From NCBI RefSeq assembly GCF_002355215.1, contig NZ_AP014612.1, forward strand, positions 1,116,001 through 1,180,000: a stretch of DNA of 64,000 nucleotides. The letters run 5' to 3'. Each line of letters begins with the position of its first letter. Position 1 is the stretch's first letter. The translations under genes were made by a program, and so were the position numbers. The notes under the pieces were generated by a model, which was not told the DNA's origin, did no database searches, and was given only the letters and a program-made list of their open reading frames with translations. Source of the stretch: Streptococcus troglodytae. GTDB taxonomy: Bacteria; Bacillota; Bacilli; Lactobacillales; Streptococcaceae. Positions 1-51,805 of the stretch are shown here, piece by piece.

Positions 1-2039
1 TATATCTAAAATACCATTTAAAAATAAGAGCCATTTTATATTTTGGGTCTCTTTCTGCTTTCTCTATTTTTAATGAGTTTGTATATTTCTTTACTTCACT
101 ATAAACCTCTTCAAAACTCCTCTTGAAATACTTCTTTTGAATTCGTTCCTGTGTATCGAAATCAATTTCTGAAATAGAATTGTGGTTTTTATACAGCTCA
201 TATAATTTATTAGCTCTAGCAGGAAAGAATACCCCTCTCTTAAGTACCTGAACAATTGCTCCCATCTCAAACATATCACCAGCTGGTGCATACGCTGTAT
301 CTTGAATATTGATCTTTTCCAGCATATCCTTTACAACTTCACTTGTCCCTGCTTCTACTGTACATTGATTAATTGAACCAGTAACAACAAAATCAGCTCC
401 CATAAGAAAAGCAGATGCAACTGCTGCTGGTGTCCCAATTCCACCAGCTAATCCAACTCGTACTCTATTTTTATAACTGTTTTTCTTTGCTATCTCATCT
501 CTTAACTTTTGTATTGTCGGTAAAATTACATATCCAACACCTTGATCCGTATGGCCTCCTGAATCTGCTTCTACACATATATCGTCAGCCATAGATATAT
601 ATGCAGCAAGTTCAGCTTCCTCTTTTGTAATTTCCCCATTTTCCAAAAGCTTTTTGACAATACGTTCCGGTGGTGCACTTAGAAATTGCTCTGCAATCTC
701 TGGTCTTGACACCTTAGCAATAATTCTATGTTTAATAATAATGTTTCCAGTATCATCTTTGGTTATACCATTAATTCGTAGTTTAACCAGTGCCAATGTC
801 ATACTCATATATGCTGAAGCTTCAAAGTTTCTAATATCGTATTTTATATACAACTTAATTAATTCATCTTCCTTTTCAGGATTATGAGCATTACACAATA
901 AATTCATTCCATAGGCTTCACCATGAAGTAATTCTGCTTGAATATATTGAATAGACTCTTCTATCTCATCTATGGGAAGTCCACCTGTTCCTAAAAATGC
1001 CATAAAACCTGCCTTACCCATTGCGACAACTAACTCTTTTGAAGAAACACCTCGATACATTGCTCCTGCAATATAAGCATAATTTAAGTTATAATTCTTT
1101 TTGAATTGTTCGGAACCAAATTTTTCAGCTAAATTAACTGTTGTTTCTCCTGACTTTTGAACTGTTGCTTCTTCATCATTTACAATCAAAGGAGTTGACT
1201 TCTCTTTTATTTGGCGAATCATGCTTGTAAGAACATTACTAGGTCCCACTTGAACAATATCTTCGACTCCCTTTCCCATAAGATATCTTATAGACTCTAC
1301 CCATTTGACAGAATTATACATCTGCTTCACGAGTACGTTTTTTATCTGATTATTCTTATATGGTCTGGCTTTTAAATTAGAAATAACAGGTATCTCAAAA
1401 TCATTAAACGTAAACTGAGATATATATGTATCAAATTCCTTAGCTACTTTCTTCATATAACGCGAATGAAAAGCTCCACTTACATTTAAAAGCACATAAT
1501 TACTTGCTCCCTCAAACATAAATACCTGTTTTGCATCTTCAATATCTTTTTATATCCCGAAATTACGATTTGCGATGGCGTATTGATATTGGCCAAATCA
1601 ATCATATTTAAATGATTTTTTTCTAATACTCTTTTTACTTCATCCTCGCTCATTCCAACAACAGCGGCCATTCCACCACCTGAAACCTGAGCCATGAGTT
1701 GACTTCTTTTTTTAATCAACTTTAACCCTGTAGCAAAATCAAATACTCCTGCTGCAAAAAGTGCTACATATTCACCTAAACTATGTCCGGCTATATAATC
1801 TGGTTTTACATTCTCTTCCTTAATTTTTTTCAGATACGATAATGCTTCAACAACATACAATGCAGGCTGTGTATACTGCGTGTTATCCAACTTCTCTTCT
1901 TTATCCTCCAGACATAATTCTTTTATGGAATATCCAAGAACTTGATCTGACCGCTCTACTAACTCAGGAAATTCATCAAATAGTTCTTCTCCCATTCCCT
2001 TTTTTGTGAACCTTGTCCTGGGAATACATAAGCTTTCAT
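1..2039 (-). CDS. trans-AT PKS acyltransferase-enoylreductase fusion (PksE-like), partial, two frameshifts
   Basis: This is a two-domain helper enzyme of a trans-acyltransferase polyketide synthase. The N-terminal third is a malonyl-CoA:ACP acyltransferase: an FPGQGSQ start motif, GHSLGEY with the nucleophile serine, and VSGAFHS with the catalytic histidine. The rest is a PfaD-type FMN enoylreductase: ADSGGHTD, GGIGTP, MGADFVVTGSINQCTVEAG and DTAYAPAGDMFEMG are readable near positions 165-560. The frame is open to the window edge, so the C-terminus is missing. The start is the ATG at 2037-2039. The frame breaks twice, at T runs 2000-2005 and 1547-1551; one extra base in each restores a continuous protein, so sequencing error is likelier than decay. 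The same fusion occurs in Bacillus PksE. It loads extender units in trans and reduces enoyl intermediates. Confidence 0.85.
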
Positions 2040-2114
2040 CTATTCTTTCTCCTTTTTATTTAATAAAGTTATGTCAAATAAAATAACAAGATTTTGTCTT
2101 TAGCTGTATTTTCA

Positions 2115-2145
2115 CATAACTTACTTGATACTACCCTAATAAAAC
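2115..2145 (-). promoter_or_regulatory. conserved upstream element, copy 1
   Basis: An approximately 30-base element upstream of the acyltransferase-enoylreductase start. Its core ACCCTAATAAAAC (plus strand, 2133-2145) and flank ATAACT recur at 4815-4844 upstream of the PPTase, with about 24 of 30 positions identical. Both copies lie on the same side of a helper gene. A shared operator or promoter element is inferred. Confidence 0.4.
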
Positions 2146-2170
2146 AATAAAACGTTTCCTGAAAATTATA

Positions 2171-3160
2171 TCACCTCCTGAGGTTGAATGTTTTCTGTCT
2201 AACTTTGGAAGTGCTGTTTAAATCATCCATTAGTCTCTTCAAATTCTCATTTTCCGTATTGTACATATTGATAATGGAGTAACTCTTATGTTTTGATCCT
2301 TCTCCGCGTTTAACAAAGTTAGATAGTGTACCATTGGGACCCAAATCAATATATACAGGATTCATGTTTTTCTCAATACTTTTGATCATTTGCTGAAATA
2401 GCATCGGTTTTCTTAGGACATCCCATATATAAGAATGCGGAATTTCTTTTATGATTCTTCCATATGCACAAGAACCAATTGGAACTTTCAACTGCCATGG
2501 ATTTAATTTATTCTTTGCTTCATTTCTTATCTCTTCAATCATCTTAGAGTGAAAAGCATACTTCACCGGAAGTCGCTGAAATATAATTCGATTTTGCTTA
2601 AGATAATCAATTACGTTTCCTAGTGATTTGTTACTGCCTGAAACCACAAAATTGTTATCATAATTTATTCCCGCGATTTCGCAATCACCAAAGATTTCTC
2701 TTTTATCAAAATACATATTACTGTTATCCAGAATCGAAACCATTCCACCTTTTTGACACTTTTCTGCTACCTTTCTGACAATTTCAAATAGCACTTTTAT
2801 TACATCCTTCAAGTTATTATTATGCGAAAGTGCTACTGCCACAAACTCTCCCATACTTGAACCTACAATATAATCCGGATAAATGCCTTGGTCTATCAGG
2901 AGTTTACCAAGCGAATACTGACAAATCATTAATGCTAGACTACTTAACTGTAAATCATCACAGGATACTGATAATTTCTTTGATTTATCAAACAAATAAG
3001 TTAATACACTATAACCAGTTATCTCATAGCAATGCTCATCCAATTCATCTAGGTAATTCCTATAATTGACATTTTCCTCATACAATTGATAAGTCATATT
3101 AAAATATTGGGAACCCTGTCCCGAACAAAGAAAACAATCGAAAATCTCATTTTTTTCCAT
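2171..3160 (-). CDS. discrete acyltransferase or acyl hydrolase of a trans-AT PKS
   Basis: This 329-aa protein has the acyltransferase fold of the FabD family. A CSGQGSQ motif lies near residue 12, a serine elbow GSSMGEF near residue 100, and YAFHSKM near residue 200 carries the catalytic histidine. The usual histidine before the nucleophile serine (GHSxG) is replaced by serine. Trans-AT clusters often encode two or three such proteins, one loading malonyl units and another hydrolysing stalled acyl chains (PedC/PksD type); the sequence does not decide which this is. The ATG at 3160 follows a GAGG ribosome site; a GTG lies one codon earlier. It is 15 bases downstream of the metallo-hydrolase and probably in the same operon. 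Confidence 0.8.
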   Translation of the reverse strand: MEKNEIFDCFLCSGQGSQYFNMTYQLYEENVNYRNYLDELDEHCYEITGYSVLTYLFDKSKKLSVSCDDLQLSSLALMICQYSLGKLLIDQGIYPDYIVGSSMGEFVAVALSHNNNLKDVIKVLFEIVRKVAEKCQKGGMVSILDNSNMYFDKREIFGDCEIAGINYDNNFVVSGSNKSLGNVIDYLKQNRIIFQRLPVKYAFHSKMIEEIRNEAKNKLNPWQLKVPIGSCAYGRIIKEIPHSYIWDVLRKPMLFQQMIKSIEKNMNPVYIDLGPNGTLSNFVKRGEGSKHKSYSIINMYNTENENLKRLMDDLNSTSKVRQKTFNLRR

Positions 3161-3175
3161 CACACCTCACAGAAT

Positions 3176-3854
3176 TTATATAAATTTAAATAAATTATCT
3201 TGTCCTTTTCTATTTCTGAACTCAATAAATTTATTTATATCCTCTATCTGAAAATATATATTATGATCCATCACTTCACTTAGGATCTCACCTGGTTGCT
3301 TTCCATAAGAATGACCTGCATATATTCGCACATTAGGTGACACTATCTCCTTCACTTTCTGCAAGCTATAATACATATCACAGGCATTTGCACCTGGTCC
3401 CTTGCACATCCCACACCCTTCTGAAAAAACTCGTATCCCCTGTAAAAAGACTCTCCTCTAACAAGTAGCACATTGAACCTTTCGTATGACCTGGGGTTAA
3501 TATACAAGTTACATTTGTTTCTCCAATTCTTATCATATTCATATCATGAAGTCTAATAAGATTACGAGAAAAAAAATTGTAATAGGAGCATTCAACATCT
3601 GACATATATACTTTGGCATTTTGATATCTTTGTAATAACGCATCTGTCATGTATACATGATCAATATGAGAGTGAGTTAATAGTATTGCATCAACTTCAA
3701 CCTTTAACTTATCAAGTAAGTTAAATACAGTGACAGTATTCCAAGAAGGATCAACAATAGCTGTTTTCTTTGTATATTTATCTATTATTAGATATATATA
3801 ATTAATAAAACCGAACTGTTGTACCTTGAGCTGATAAACTTCATACGTTAACAT
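3176..3854 (-). CDS. metallo-beta-lactamase-fold hydrolase (PksB-like), one frameshift
   Basis: After frame repair this is a 225-aa glyoxalase II-type metallo-hydrolase. The metal-binding motif THSHIDH lies near residue 60, followed by GHTKGS, FTGDT and AGHSYG, which supply the remaining metal ligands. Length and the cysteine-rich EGCGMC stretch fit PksB-type hydrolases found beside trans-AT polyketide synthases, whose role is unsettled (intermediate release or quality control). The frame breaks at A run 3424-3429; removing one base restores the conserved order. Its ATG directly follows the stop codon of the PPTase gene, so the two are translationally coupled. Confidence 0.8.
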
Positions 3855-4562
3855 TTATAAGTTTCTCCATTTTTGTAACTCCTCTAATGTAAGAATTTTA
3901 ACTTGACTATTTATCCTATCATTCCACTGTGATTTGACACATAATGATATAACGTGTCGTCCATCTAACTGTCCTGTTGTAAAGACTAAACTACAATCCC
4001 TTTCCCCTTTTAGATAAAACTGAATGCCATCCTCATTAAATTGAAACAGAAAACTGTCGAATGGTATACTTAATCCTTTTCCTATATATTTCACATAACT
4101 TTCTTTTAATGTCCATATCTTATAAAATGTCTTTATCCTTTGATCCAAAGGCTGCATAAATATAAAATCATGTTCTTCTTTCGTAAAAATTCTATTGAAT
4201 AAGTTCATCTTCTTATCCTTAATCTCTTCAACATCTAGTCCAATTGGAGTATCTCCTAACCCACATAACACCCAATTCCCTGAGTGCGATAAATTGAAAT
4301 AAAGACCTTTTTGGTTCACTAAATAAGGTTTTCCATATTTCGATTGTCCAAACTCTATATATGTACTATTTAAACCATACTGCTCCCACAATGCATATTT
4401 CAATATAATCTCAGCAAATAGACTATGTACTTTATCCTTTTGAAAATAAAATCTATTTATCTTTACTTTTCTCTCTGCTGAAACTATATTAAGAAACTCT
4501 TTTACCTCATTTATGTTCACAATTTTCTTTGTATTAATTGCATATTGGTATATCATTTCCAC
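3855..4562 (-). CDS. Sfp-type 4'-phosphopantetheinyl transferase
   Basis: This 235-aa protein attaches the phosphopantetheine arm of CoA to carrier-protein serines and so activates polyketide and peptide synthetases. The family signature is clear: IGLDVEEI near residue 127 with the magnesium-binding Asp and Glu, and WTLKESYVKYIGKG near residue 170. The length matches Sfp, not the shorter AcpS of primary metabolism. The start may be the GTG at 4562 or the ATG at 4556; a GGAG site lies just upstream. It is the first gene of a four-gene minus-strand group. A dedicated PPTase supports the view that carrier-protein megasynthases lie beyond the left edge. Confidence 0.88.
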   Translation of the reverse strand: MEMIYQYAINTKKIVNINEVKEFLNIVSAERKVKINRFYFQKDKVHSLFAEIILKYALWEQYGLNSTYIEFGQSKYGKPYLVNQKGLYFNLSHSGNWVLCGLGDTPIGLDVEEIKDKKMNLFNRIFTKEEHDFIFMQPLDQRIKTFYKIWTLKESYVKYIGKGLSIPFDSFLFQFNEDGIQFYLKGERDCSLVFTTGQLDGRHVISLCVKSQWNDRINSQVKILTLEELQKWRNL

Positions 4563-5284
4563 TTAATCTCCAAATGTATATAATCAGATTTTGTATTTAA
4601 TGTCACTTACTGACCTAAGGTTCTACTTCCCGATTTCATGGACTCAAAAATAAGTAGAAGTTGTCTTTTTAGCTTCAGATATATTCTCTCTAGGCGATAT
4701 TCAAATAGAAGAAAATATATTTAACAGTCTCTTTTTTTAATCATTTTCTAGATAATCCAAATTTCTCAAAATACATTGGATGGGGATGTCCTACTGCTTG
4801 CTAAACGATCCGAAATAACTGTCTCAATATAACCCTAATAAAACTATCGACAAAAACTTGAACCTTAATTATAATGATAGAGATTTTCATTACGGATTGC
4901 TATCTAAGCTAAACTTGTAGAATTAAGGGAAGCAAAATTTGAACACTAGAAATTTTACAATGTTGTATATTTCTGCGTTCTGTTAGTACTTTTTGAACAC
5001 AGCTTTTATAACATCACATAATAAACGCCATTATGATGTATTGCAAGTAGTGAAAATTGTTGCATATTTCTCCTTGTCTCCTCTTCTACAATAAATGTTC
5101 TTGGATACTTACTCCCCTATCACATAATCATTTGACTTACTGCCAAAGATTATTTGATGGATAAATTCTGCCCATCGTTCAAATCTCATATGATATGATT
5201 TTCAAAGTAAAACATCACGATCCAGTCGTTCTCTTACAGTATAGTGAGGATGAAAGTTAGTAAATGAACTATCACATGATTAAT
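4563..5284. other. gene-free junction beside the polyketide cassette
   Basis: About 720 bases of AT-rich sequence with no convincing gene on either strand. Apart from the element at 4815-4844, nothing recognisable was found: no tRNA, no clear terminal repeats, no transposase remnant. It separates the polyketide cassette from housekeeping genes and is a plausible insertion boundary. Confidence 0.5.
4815..4844 (-). promoter_or_regulatory. conserved upstream element, copy 2
   Basis: The second copy of the element at 2115-2145. It has the same ATAACT flank and the exact 13-base core at 4832-4844, about 250 bases upstream of the PPTase start. It lies at the head of the helper-gene group, where a promoter or regulator site is expected. 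Confidence 0.4.
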
Positions 5285-6249
5285 TTAAAATAGTTTATCA
5301 TAACCAATTTTTATATCAGGGAAGTAATTTGTAACAGCAGCAAATAACGGCTGAAGTTCTTCATCTGTTTTCTTACCGCGATTGCAAATAAATAGACTAA
5401 CTTTCTTATTATCCATTTTAACTGCAACGAGAAAAGATTGTTGATTGACAGCAATAAAAGAACGTCTGGTCTTAACAATGCGATGGTAAAGCTGCACAAC
5501 TTGATGCAGATCTACAAGAGCAAATCCTCTATGATAAGTTATAAGATGATTTTTATAAATAATAATTTTAAGCTTATCATCATGATAAAGCGATTCAGAG
5601 ATGAGAGGATCTAAATTACCATTTAATTCAGGATAAGCAGCATAAAGCTCATCATAAGCTCGATTAACCTTATATCTAACATAGAAAGCGATACCTATAA
5701 AAAGCAAGCCAACCAAACCTAAGAGGCCACATACAATTGGTAGGCTAGTCTGATCAGATTTTATATCATAGAGAGAAACATAGGTATAAAATGAAAAATA
5801 TTTGTTCAACTCAGGCTGTGATCGTAAAATACCAATCATTGCACCAGAATAATTTCGAATAGCATGGCTGGTACTTCTATGGGTGTTATAATACTTCACC
5901 GCAATGCGTTTAGGATGCTGTCTTAGCGAACTGCCAGCTTTCAATAATCTAGCAATATCCTTATCCTCTTCTTTAGATTCTAAACCAACATAACCATTGT
6001 CTTTATATTTCACAAGCCAAATAACTGTTTTGTGACCATCAATATCTGCTATAGGTTTGGAATAAATATCACGAATTTCAAGCGTCACCTTGTCTCCCGA
6101 AGAGGCCTTTGTAGACTCGCCGTTATAAGAAACTGCTTGACTATTGTTTTATAAGAAACCGCTAGAAAAATCCCTACGGCTCCAATGATAAAGAAAATTC
6201 CAAAAACAAGATATAGAACAAACCCCTTATTGCAGTTTTCCTTTAACAT
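5285..6249 (-). CDS. hypothetical membrane protein with two transmembrane segments, one frameshift
   Basis: I do not recognise a function. After repair the product is about 321 aa. It has an N-terminal membrane segment (about residues 10-32, rich in Phe, Ile and Val), an exposed domain of about 135 residues, a second membrane segment (about 171-192, LLGLVGLLFIGIAFYVRY) and a cytoplasmic C-terminal domain. The frame breaks at T run 6147-6150, where one more base joins the N-terminal part to the rest. The ATG at 6249 follows a GGAGG site. It appears to be a single-gene unit. Confidence 0.65.
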
Positions 6250-6528
6250 AAACAACCTCCACTTTCTGCCTATCATTACTTTTTCAGTATAACATATACT
6301 TTCTAAAAGGCAGCTTTTGTCATTAAATCTTAAAAAGAATTCAATAATCGTTGTAAATACAAAATGAGAATCACAACAAATCAGTAGCTCAAGAAGAAGT
6401 TGATTTGTCGTGACTCTCATCCAATTTTAGATATTGATAAAAACAACCAAGTCAGTACCATTAAAATTTACTAATTAGCAATAATTACTCATCATCATAT
6501 TCTTAAATGAAAGAATCATTGCCAGATT

Positions 6529-17375: not shown

Positions 17376-19345
<1,970 letters not shown>

Positions 19346-50544: not shown

Positions 50545-51805
50545 AAAAATGAACTGGTCAGGTTTTTCTAAAAAACATTGCAAGAACGCCTGAAACATTT
50601 AGAAAAAAATCAGCTGCTAAGCACAGAAGAGTTGAAAAAACTCTGTCAAAATCAACAATTACCTTTAGAGACTGCCAATCAAATGGTCGAAAATGTCTTA
50701 GGAACCTTTTCGCTGCCTTTCGCCCTAGCACCAGATTTCCTTATTGATGGGAAGGAATATCAGGTTCCTTTTGTAACTGAAGAGCCTTCTGTTGTTGCAG
50801 CAGCTAGTTTTGCAGCTAAAATTATCAAACGTTCTGGTGGTTTTTCTACTAAAATTCATAATCGTCAAATGCTTGGCCAAGTGGCTCTTTATGATGTGGC
50901 TGATTTTGATAAAGCACACAAAAATATCTTGGACAAGAAGGCCTTACTCCTATCTTTAGCCAATGCAGCACACCCTTCCATTGTTAAACGAGGGGGTGGT
51001 GCTTGTGATTTGTTTGTAGAAAGGAAAGATGACTTTTCTTATTGTTTACCTTCGTGTTGATACTCAGGAGGCTATGGGAGCAAATATGGTCAATACCATG
51101 ATGGAAGCCTTAGTTTCTCCTTTAGAAGAGCTATCTGATGGACAAAGTCTTATGGCTATTCTTTCTAACTACGCAACAGAAGCCCTAGTGACTAGTCAAT
51201 GTCAGGTTAATCTTCGTTTCCTCAGTCGTGATAAGGCAGAAGCCAAAAAAATAGCTCGAAAAATGGACTTAGCCAGTCAACTGGCTCAAGTTGATGTTTA
51301 TCGAGCCAGCACCCACAATAAGGGTATTTTTAACGGTATCGATGCTCTTGTACTAGCTACAGGTAACGATTGGCGTGCTATTGAGGCTGGTGGACATGCT
51401 TATGCTAGTAGAGGTGGACATTATCGTGGTCTGTCTACTTGGTCATATGATGACAAAAATGAGATATTAAAGGGCAAGATAACCCTACCTATACCCATTG
51501 CTACTAAGGGAGGATCTATTGGGTTAAATCCAACGGTTCAATGCGCCTATGATTTGCTTGGAAATCCGACTGCTAAAGAATTAGCTGCTATCATTGCTGC
51601 TGTAGGTCTGGCTCAAAATTTTGCTGCCCTTAAGGCCTTGACCAGCACAGGCATCCAAGCTGGACATATGAAACTTCAGGCAAAGTCCTTGGCCTTGCTT
51701 GCAGGCGCTAAGGAAAAAGAAGTATCAGCTCTTGTTTCTCAGCTTCTTAAAGCTAAGCATATAAATTTGGAAACTGCGCAAGCTCTTTTAAAAAATTTAA
51801 GATAA
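50534..51805 (+). CDS. mvaA: hydroxymethylglutaryl-CoA reductase (class II), two frameshifts
   Basis: Reduces HMG-CoA to mevalonate. The repaired protein is 423 aa. EEPSVVAAASFAAK near residue 80, DTQEAMGANMVNTMMEAL near residue 174 and the C-terminal AGHMKLQAKSLALLAGA, with the catalytic His, are clear. The frame breaks at A run 50570-50575 (one base short) and T run 51034-51037 (one base too many). Repair gives FSKKTLQERL and RKDDFLIVYLRVDTQEA. The ATG at 50534 overlaps mvaS. Confidence 0.93.

Follow-up and report, generated by a model that had tools for sequence, protein, structure and literature searches.

The window analysed here, a stretch of 64,000 nucleotides at bases 1116001-1180000 of a 2,097,874-base single-contig streptococcal genome, carries at its left edge four adjacent genes on the minus strand, which very probably make up the helper end of a single large trans-acyltransferase (trans-AT) polyketide synthase (PKS) island, most of whose apparent frame breaks are probably consensus errors. 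The four genes are given below in window coordinates, beginning with the first gene of the cluster.

3855-4562, minus strand: Sfp-type 4'-phosphopantetheinyl transferase of 235 amino acids (ACPS, 68.8 bits; AASDHPPT_N, 50.8 bits)
3176-3854, minus strand: hydrolase of metallo-beta-lactamase fold at the PksB position, readable only in two frames (pieces 3378-3854 and 3176-3409)
2171-3163, minus strand: discrete trans-acting acyltransferase (AT) of 330 amino acids (Acyl_transf_1, 107 bits)
1-1995 and on to genome position 1115789, minus strand: PksE-like FabD acyltransferase with a PfaD-type enoylreductase (pieces 1486-1995 and 2-1549)

All four had been recognized at these positions in a preliminary description of the window, and domain matches agreed with it; that the deposited sequence breaks the frame of two of them, the metallo-hydrolase and PksE-like genes, had gone unremarked. 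The name PksB was taken from fold and position. The PksE-like protein matched the PfaD-family enoylreductases with 663 bits (cut-off, 449), and its acyltransferase half was closest to PksC and PksE among solved structures. The start of the discrete AT is probably frame-shifted in the deposited copy too, because its residues 1-10 could not be aligned to a relative that is 99.7% identical across the remaining 320. A promoter scan of window 4400-5400 returned 9 sites against 5.9 expected and was uninformative.

A polyketide megasynthase had been predicted to the left of these genes, and 14 AT-less ketosynthase (KS) modules and a decarboxylating KS were found there within about 60 kb. For domain analysis, 50 minus-strand pieces of at least 130 amino acids (genome 1044041-1117549) were scanned; two of them represent the GTPase and RNase HII genes of the flank. 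Pfam was applied to 49 pieces whole and to part of the PksE piece, which was also run whole against NCBIfam; three shorter pieces were scanned as well. Fifteen of the 17 KS matches in the genome fell in 1055999-1115520 (14 modular and one decarboxylating). The gene for the PksE-like protein is followed by those for a free carrier protein, a PksF-like KS, an HMG-synthase and a PksH-like ECH, and then by the modules. The features are listed in genome coordinates.

1115537-1115773: free carrier protein (26.3 bits; cut-off, 20.8)
1114111-1115541: PksF-like decarboxylating KS (PRK07103, 487 bits; cut-off, 445), with Ser replacing the active-site Cys
1113032-1114156: HMG-synthase (above the Pfam cut-offs)
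1112229-1113038: PksH-like ECH, or ECH1 (PRK07112, 240 bits; slightly under the cut-off of 250)
1100433-1101449, 1091871-1093022 and 1082975-1086124, minus strand: three in-line ECH pieces
1050100-1052979, minus strand: last module piece, with ketoreductase (KR), methyltransferase and alpha/beta hydrolase carrying GSSWG
1046756-1049913: ABC exporter with one ATPase and two ABC-2 permease regions, frames broken here too

The span from exporter to Sfp is about 73.8 kb. In the Pfam scan of pieces of at least 130 amino acids, the modules carried KS, dehydratase, KR and carrier domains, and no module piece gave an Acyl_transf_1 match that would indicate a cis AT; two discrete ATs are encoded in the cluster (the one at window 2171-3163 and the FabD portion of the PksE-like protein). 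The active-site Cys was present in all 14 modular KS, and HGTGT and the second His motif in 13 each, the missing motifs falling at frame breaks. RhiE-like or CurL-like linkers followed 12 of the 14 KS. When one KS piece was compared with solved structures, chain 7zma was the best match, and several trans-AT synthases (PksL, PksJ, 'AT-less') stood near the top, PksL and PksJ within the ten best. AT-less KS modules, discrete ATs and KS linkers together mark the island as a predicted trans-AT PKS. The three in-line ECH are followed by two, three and two tandem carriers, respectively; both copies tested of the three were of the ECH2 (PRK07110) type above the cut-off, and one in-line ECH had PksI and CurF as its best solved relatives. 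Carrier protein, decarboxylating KS, HMG-synthase, ECH1 and ECH2 thus appear to make up a complete cassette for HMG-synthase beta-branching. The terminal alpha/beta hydrolase showed weak BioH-type similarity (TIGR01738, 57.5 bits; cut-off, 207).

The polyketide part of the earlier prediction was therefore borne out, and the hybrid peptide part was not: no AMP-binding or Condensation match, that is, no adenylation (A) or condensation (C) domain, was found in the 50 scanned pieces. Mutanobactin (PMC5116633) and mutanofactin (PMC11782227), which had been offered as possible identities, are described as products of hybrid PKS/nonribosomal peptide synthetase (NRPS) clusters, and since A and C domains were not found, the island corresponds to neither. 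That it is any known hybrid cluster (mutanobactin, mutanofactin, mutanoclumpin or mutanocyclin) would suit a host from the same group of oral streptococci, but is exceedingly improbable given the domain content, the separate muc-like cluster elsewhere in the genome and the treatment of pure PKS clusters as a group of their own in the relevant part of PMC5116633. The muc/reutericyclin-like cluster, at genome 1929243-1937644, comprises genes for a C-A-T NRPS, a KS-T-TE PKS, and thiolase-like and KSIII-like proteins, and its large genes are open; it agrees with BGC1, which S. troglodytae TKU31 is stated to carry in a passage of PMC6694145.

The borders of the island were set by alignment to a sibling genome (G111; 2,018,796 bases), the closest of the genomes compared. 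About 75.6 kb (genome 1045650-1121283) stand here where G111 has an empty site of about 204 bp: its left flank ends at a point equal to 1045649, and its right flank resumes at 1121284. The neighbours are an rbgA-like GTPase gene on one side, so named from its domain and the adjoining RNase HII gene and presumably of that type, and a gene for 378 amino acids on the other. On the helper side the border falls within the window as follows.

1-5283: right end of the island; alignment to G111 resumes at 5284
5285-6420, minus strand: flanking chromosomal gene outside the cluster, one 378-amino-acid frame in G111 and split here

The two parts of this flanking gene are open reading frames (ORFs) of 267 and 111 amino acids, the former without a Pfam match. 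No tRNA gene was found in the four loci scanned, one island locus lying outside the scan, and no convincing terminal repeat was seen at the island; site-specific integration was set aside on these two results. Three GH70 glucosyltransferase matches were noted in open frames of 1421-1487 amino acids (genome 1024806-1031744 and 1196948-1199416, minus strand), two of them adjoining each other to the left of the island.

G111 is presumably S. mutans. The flanks share 93-98% DNA identity with it in the main blocks, coding DNA differs at 3113 of 67256 positions (4.6%), and the 49 flanking ORFs compared have a median amino acid identity of 96.4%. A count by eye gave 15 differences in 391 positions between the mvaS protein and solved chain 3leh, which we take to be from S. 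mutans. On these figures the host is probably not S. mutans itself but a sibling species, presumably S. troglodytae TKU31.

Frame breaks were counted in several ways. There are 41 overlaps between consecutive open pieces of the island that lie in different frames, 37 with a shift of -1 and 4 with a shift of +1; some of these overlaps are probably natural gene borders, such as the ECH start, and a -1 shift is compatible with the loss of one base or the gain of two. A frame-tracking model run at penalties of 6, 8 and 10 gave 53, 46 and 37 deletions, 5, 2 and 0 insertions and no nonsense events in the 69.3 kb of the island, and 59, 36 and 22 deletions, 32, 23 and 11 insertions and 6, 4 and 1 nonsense events in control regions (183-186 kb coding), where many events probably lie at gene borders. 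Results from an earlier version of the model, which ended genes rather than shifting frame, were not used. ORF tiling gave 21 no-start candidates in 70 kb of the island, all -1, and 213 kb of control sequence gave 12, of which 7 were -1. The view drawn from this tiling that breaks are confined to the island had to be softened when alignment to G111 showed 26 frame-changing indels (17 deletions and 9 insertions; three of two bases) in 67.3 kb of ORFs outside it, a count that leans toward breaks in this genome because the ORFs were picked as open in G111. Among the genes outside, mvaA, for HMG-CoA reductase of the mevalonate pathway (window 50578-51805, plus strand), is one 433-amino-acid frame in G111 and two frames here, a probable assembly error. 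A 644-amino-acid frame of G111 likewise corresponds to ORFs of 485 and 161 amino acids at window 17376-19309 (minus strand).

The breaks in the island are probably consensus sequencing errors, mainly the loss of single bases from short A runs, in a cluster that is otherwise intact. The events at penalty 10 were all of the deletion type, and a run of at least five A stood at 25 of 36 '-1' junctions, where 6.5 were expected. Consensus error is also the simplest explanation because a near-identical, intact PksE of 751 amino acids exists (P0121; 3 differences in 587 amino acids, 99.5%) and because genes outside the island, mvaA among them, are broken in the same assembly. Unpolished repeats are an unlikely cause of such errors, the 15 listed of 58 cluster self-matches being 64-69% identical, and no long repeat was found in the one 20 kb part of the cluster that was searched. 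Low G+C as the sole cause is also unlikely, since the muc-like stretch, at 34% G+C, is without a break candidate.

Several results do not sit easily with consensus error. The rate in the island did not differ significantly from that of all 26 outside indels (p 0.21), but only 10 of the latter were 90 bases or more away from either end of the ORF, and breaks so placed were denser in the island (37 in 69.3 kb versus 10 in 67.3 kb; p 1e-4), the inside/outside ratio of 3.6 being an upper estimate because the methods differ and the length was untrimmed. Deletion bias was also stronger in the island (37:0, p 0.0001, or 37:4, p 0.02, versus 17:9 outside), and the open large genes of the muc-like cluster would not be expected under evenly spread error. 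The excess of breaks inside ORFs of the island is left unexplained by this account. These same observations favour real breaks, in an island that is no longer selected in this isolate and decays through slippage deletions. We consider such decay rather unlikely: long neutral decay is disfavoured because stop codons should have accumulated, and there was no nonsense codon in the island at any penalty used, while the KS motifs are retained and PksE and the AT are 99.5-99.7% identical in amino acids to other copies. Programmed -1 ribosomal frameshifting or transcriptional slippage, by which the breaks would be read through, is suggested by the 37 of 41 overlaps that shift -1, most of them near A runs. 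An in-frame X_XXY_YYZ heptamer, however, stood at only 7 of 36 '-1' junctions (3.7 expected), on which programmed frameshifting was rejected as a general explanation; a run of eight A occurred at only 2 of 41 overlaps, and PksE is one open frame in its near-identical relative. Either form of read-through is highly improbable.

Consensus error in an otherwise intact island is thus kept as the preferred explanation of the breaks. The points that weigh against reading the four genes as the helper end of a trans-AT island are these: the megasynthase genes, at about 37-41 apparent frame breaks, do not form open frames in the deposited sequence; no near-identical intact megasynthase (2750-8750 amino acids) was found in 5.8 billion proteins, the 20 matches being 26-34% identical; near-identical copies were matched for PksE and the AT only; and the HMG-synthase piece scored under its NCBIfam cut-off (231 versus 360), its N-terminus apparently missing.

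P0121 represents a 90%-identity cluster of 15 member sequences in 10 contigs, and the near-identical AT (1 difference in 320 amino acids) represents one of 11 sequences. Further relatives of PksE were 88% (P0122; 4 contigs) and, in two cases, 78% identical, and the next named one, from Ruminiclostridium papyrosolvens, 59%; further AT relatives were 62-68% identical, including that of Lachnospiraceae bacterium 54-53 at 64%. Clostridial trans-AT genes of these two organisms, compared as single genes, are therefore the nearest named relatives beyond the near-identical copies, and a clostridial origin of the cluster is plausible. Among 283 other Streptococcus genomes, the best match to the AT outside its own genome was only 29% identical; for PksE, a search of 394 further genomes from the order at E 1e-150 gave no match, and viral contigs contained no relative either. 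A single-sequence scan of genome contigs with the AT found no relative, and an alignment-based scan found 155, at most 38% identical among the 80 listed.

Copies elsewhere match the AT at 99.7% and PksE at 99.5% identity, against a median of 96.4% in the flanking ORFs, and recent transfer of the island was therefore considered, although the contrast is not absolute, 4 of the 49 flanking ORFs reaching 99%. We suggest tentatively, as a possibility rather than the expected outcome, that mutans streptococci living in different primates exchanged the island in recent times, with a site beside the rbgA-like GTPase gene as its target and natural transformation the probable route of uptake. If that is so, and if the copies belong to human S. 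mutans, mouth bacteria of humans and chimpanzees share one orphan polyketide.

From the gene content we infer the following course of synthesis, release and export. Sfp would arm the carrier domains, and the two acyltransferases would supply malonyl units from outside to the AT-less modules. Selected double bonds may be reduced by the PfaD-type enoylreductase, acting in trans. Three beta-keto groups are predicted to be turned into one-carbon branches by the free carrier, decarboxylating KS, HMG-synthase and ECH1 along with the three in-line ECH2, so that the 14 modules would make a long, partly unsaturated chain branched three times. The terminal methyltransferase would act on this chain, the C-terminal alpha/beta hydrolase probably frees it, and the ABC-2 exporter would pump the product out. 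For the methyltransferase and the hydrolase behind it, a methyl-ester strategy like that of aurantinin synthesis (PMC8302727) may be envisaged.

A hint at the edge of a window has thereby been traced to a natural-product island of very large size within a small streptococcal genome; the site and borders of the island are defined against a sibling with an empty site. The island is best regarded as a putative assembly line for a branched polyketide, an orphan cluster in primate mouth bacteria. The deposited copy is unfit for gene prediction or module counting until it is resequenced.

The helper logic of the island is that of the bacillaene pks system of Bacillus subtilis, and comparison with solved structures showed similar parts in the PksI-type in-line ECH, the PksC/PksE-type AT half and the PksL/PksJ-type KS. 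Unlike the bacillaene system, the island lacks NRPS modules and has three in-line ECH2, and the number and order of modules differ.

Closer at hand is a group of PKS clusters reported in 2016 from 7 of 169 S. mutans strains, separate from the hybrid groups (PMC5116633). In two of these strains the cluster is described as about 70 kb long with 8 genes and 14 AT-less modules, and as having a 4'-phosphopantetheinyl transferase, a hydrolase and an HMG-synthase cassette at the 5' end, a C-terminal methyltransferase and three transporters at the 3' end. The island shares the approximate size, the 14 AT-less modules, the three 5' elements and the methyltransferase near the C-terminus, and also the three transporters, a number deduced here from the ATPase and the pair of permease regions, which are spread over broken frames; the eight genes cannot be delimited here because frame breaks blur the gene borders. 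It differs in its probable sibling host and in the alpha/beta hydrolase that follows the methyltransferase in the same open piece, the methyltransferase replacing a thioesterase in the relevant passage of the paper. By size and layout, judged without DNA comparison, the island matches this orphan S. mutans trans-AT cluster in kind. It is probably also the counterpart of BGC6, a 73.7 kb PKS cluster cloned from S. mutans MT4653 (GenBank MK144294; PMC6694145, 2019), the two being likened by type and size only (73.7 versus about 73.8 kb from exporter to Sfp); among the remaining clusters, the portion of that paper concerned gives a product for BGC4 only. Streptococcus is listed in a passage of PMC7930024 (2021) among genera with trans-AT families that have no reported member, and no product of the cluster was named in the titles or abstract starts of the open-licence papers listed by search, in one case 20 of 147. 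What is known, then, is the kind of cluster; what is new is the probable host, the site and borders, a terminal hydrolase absent from the account in those sections of the 2016 paper, and the evaluation of the breaks.

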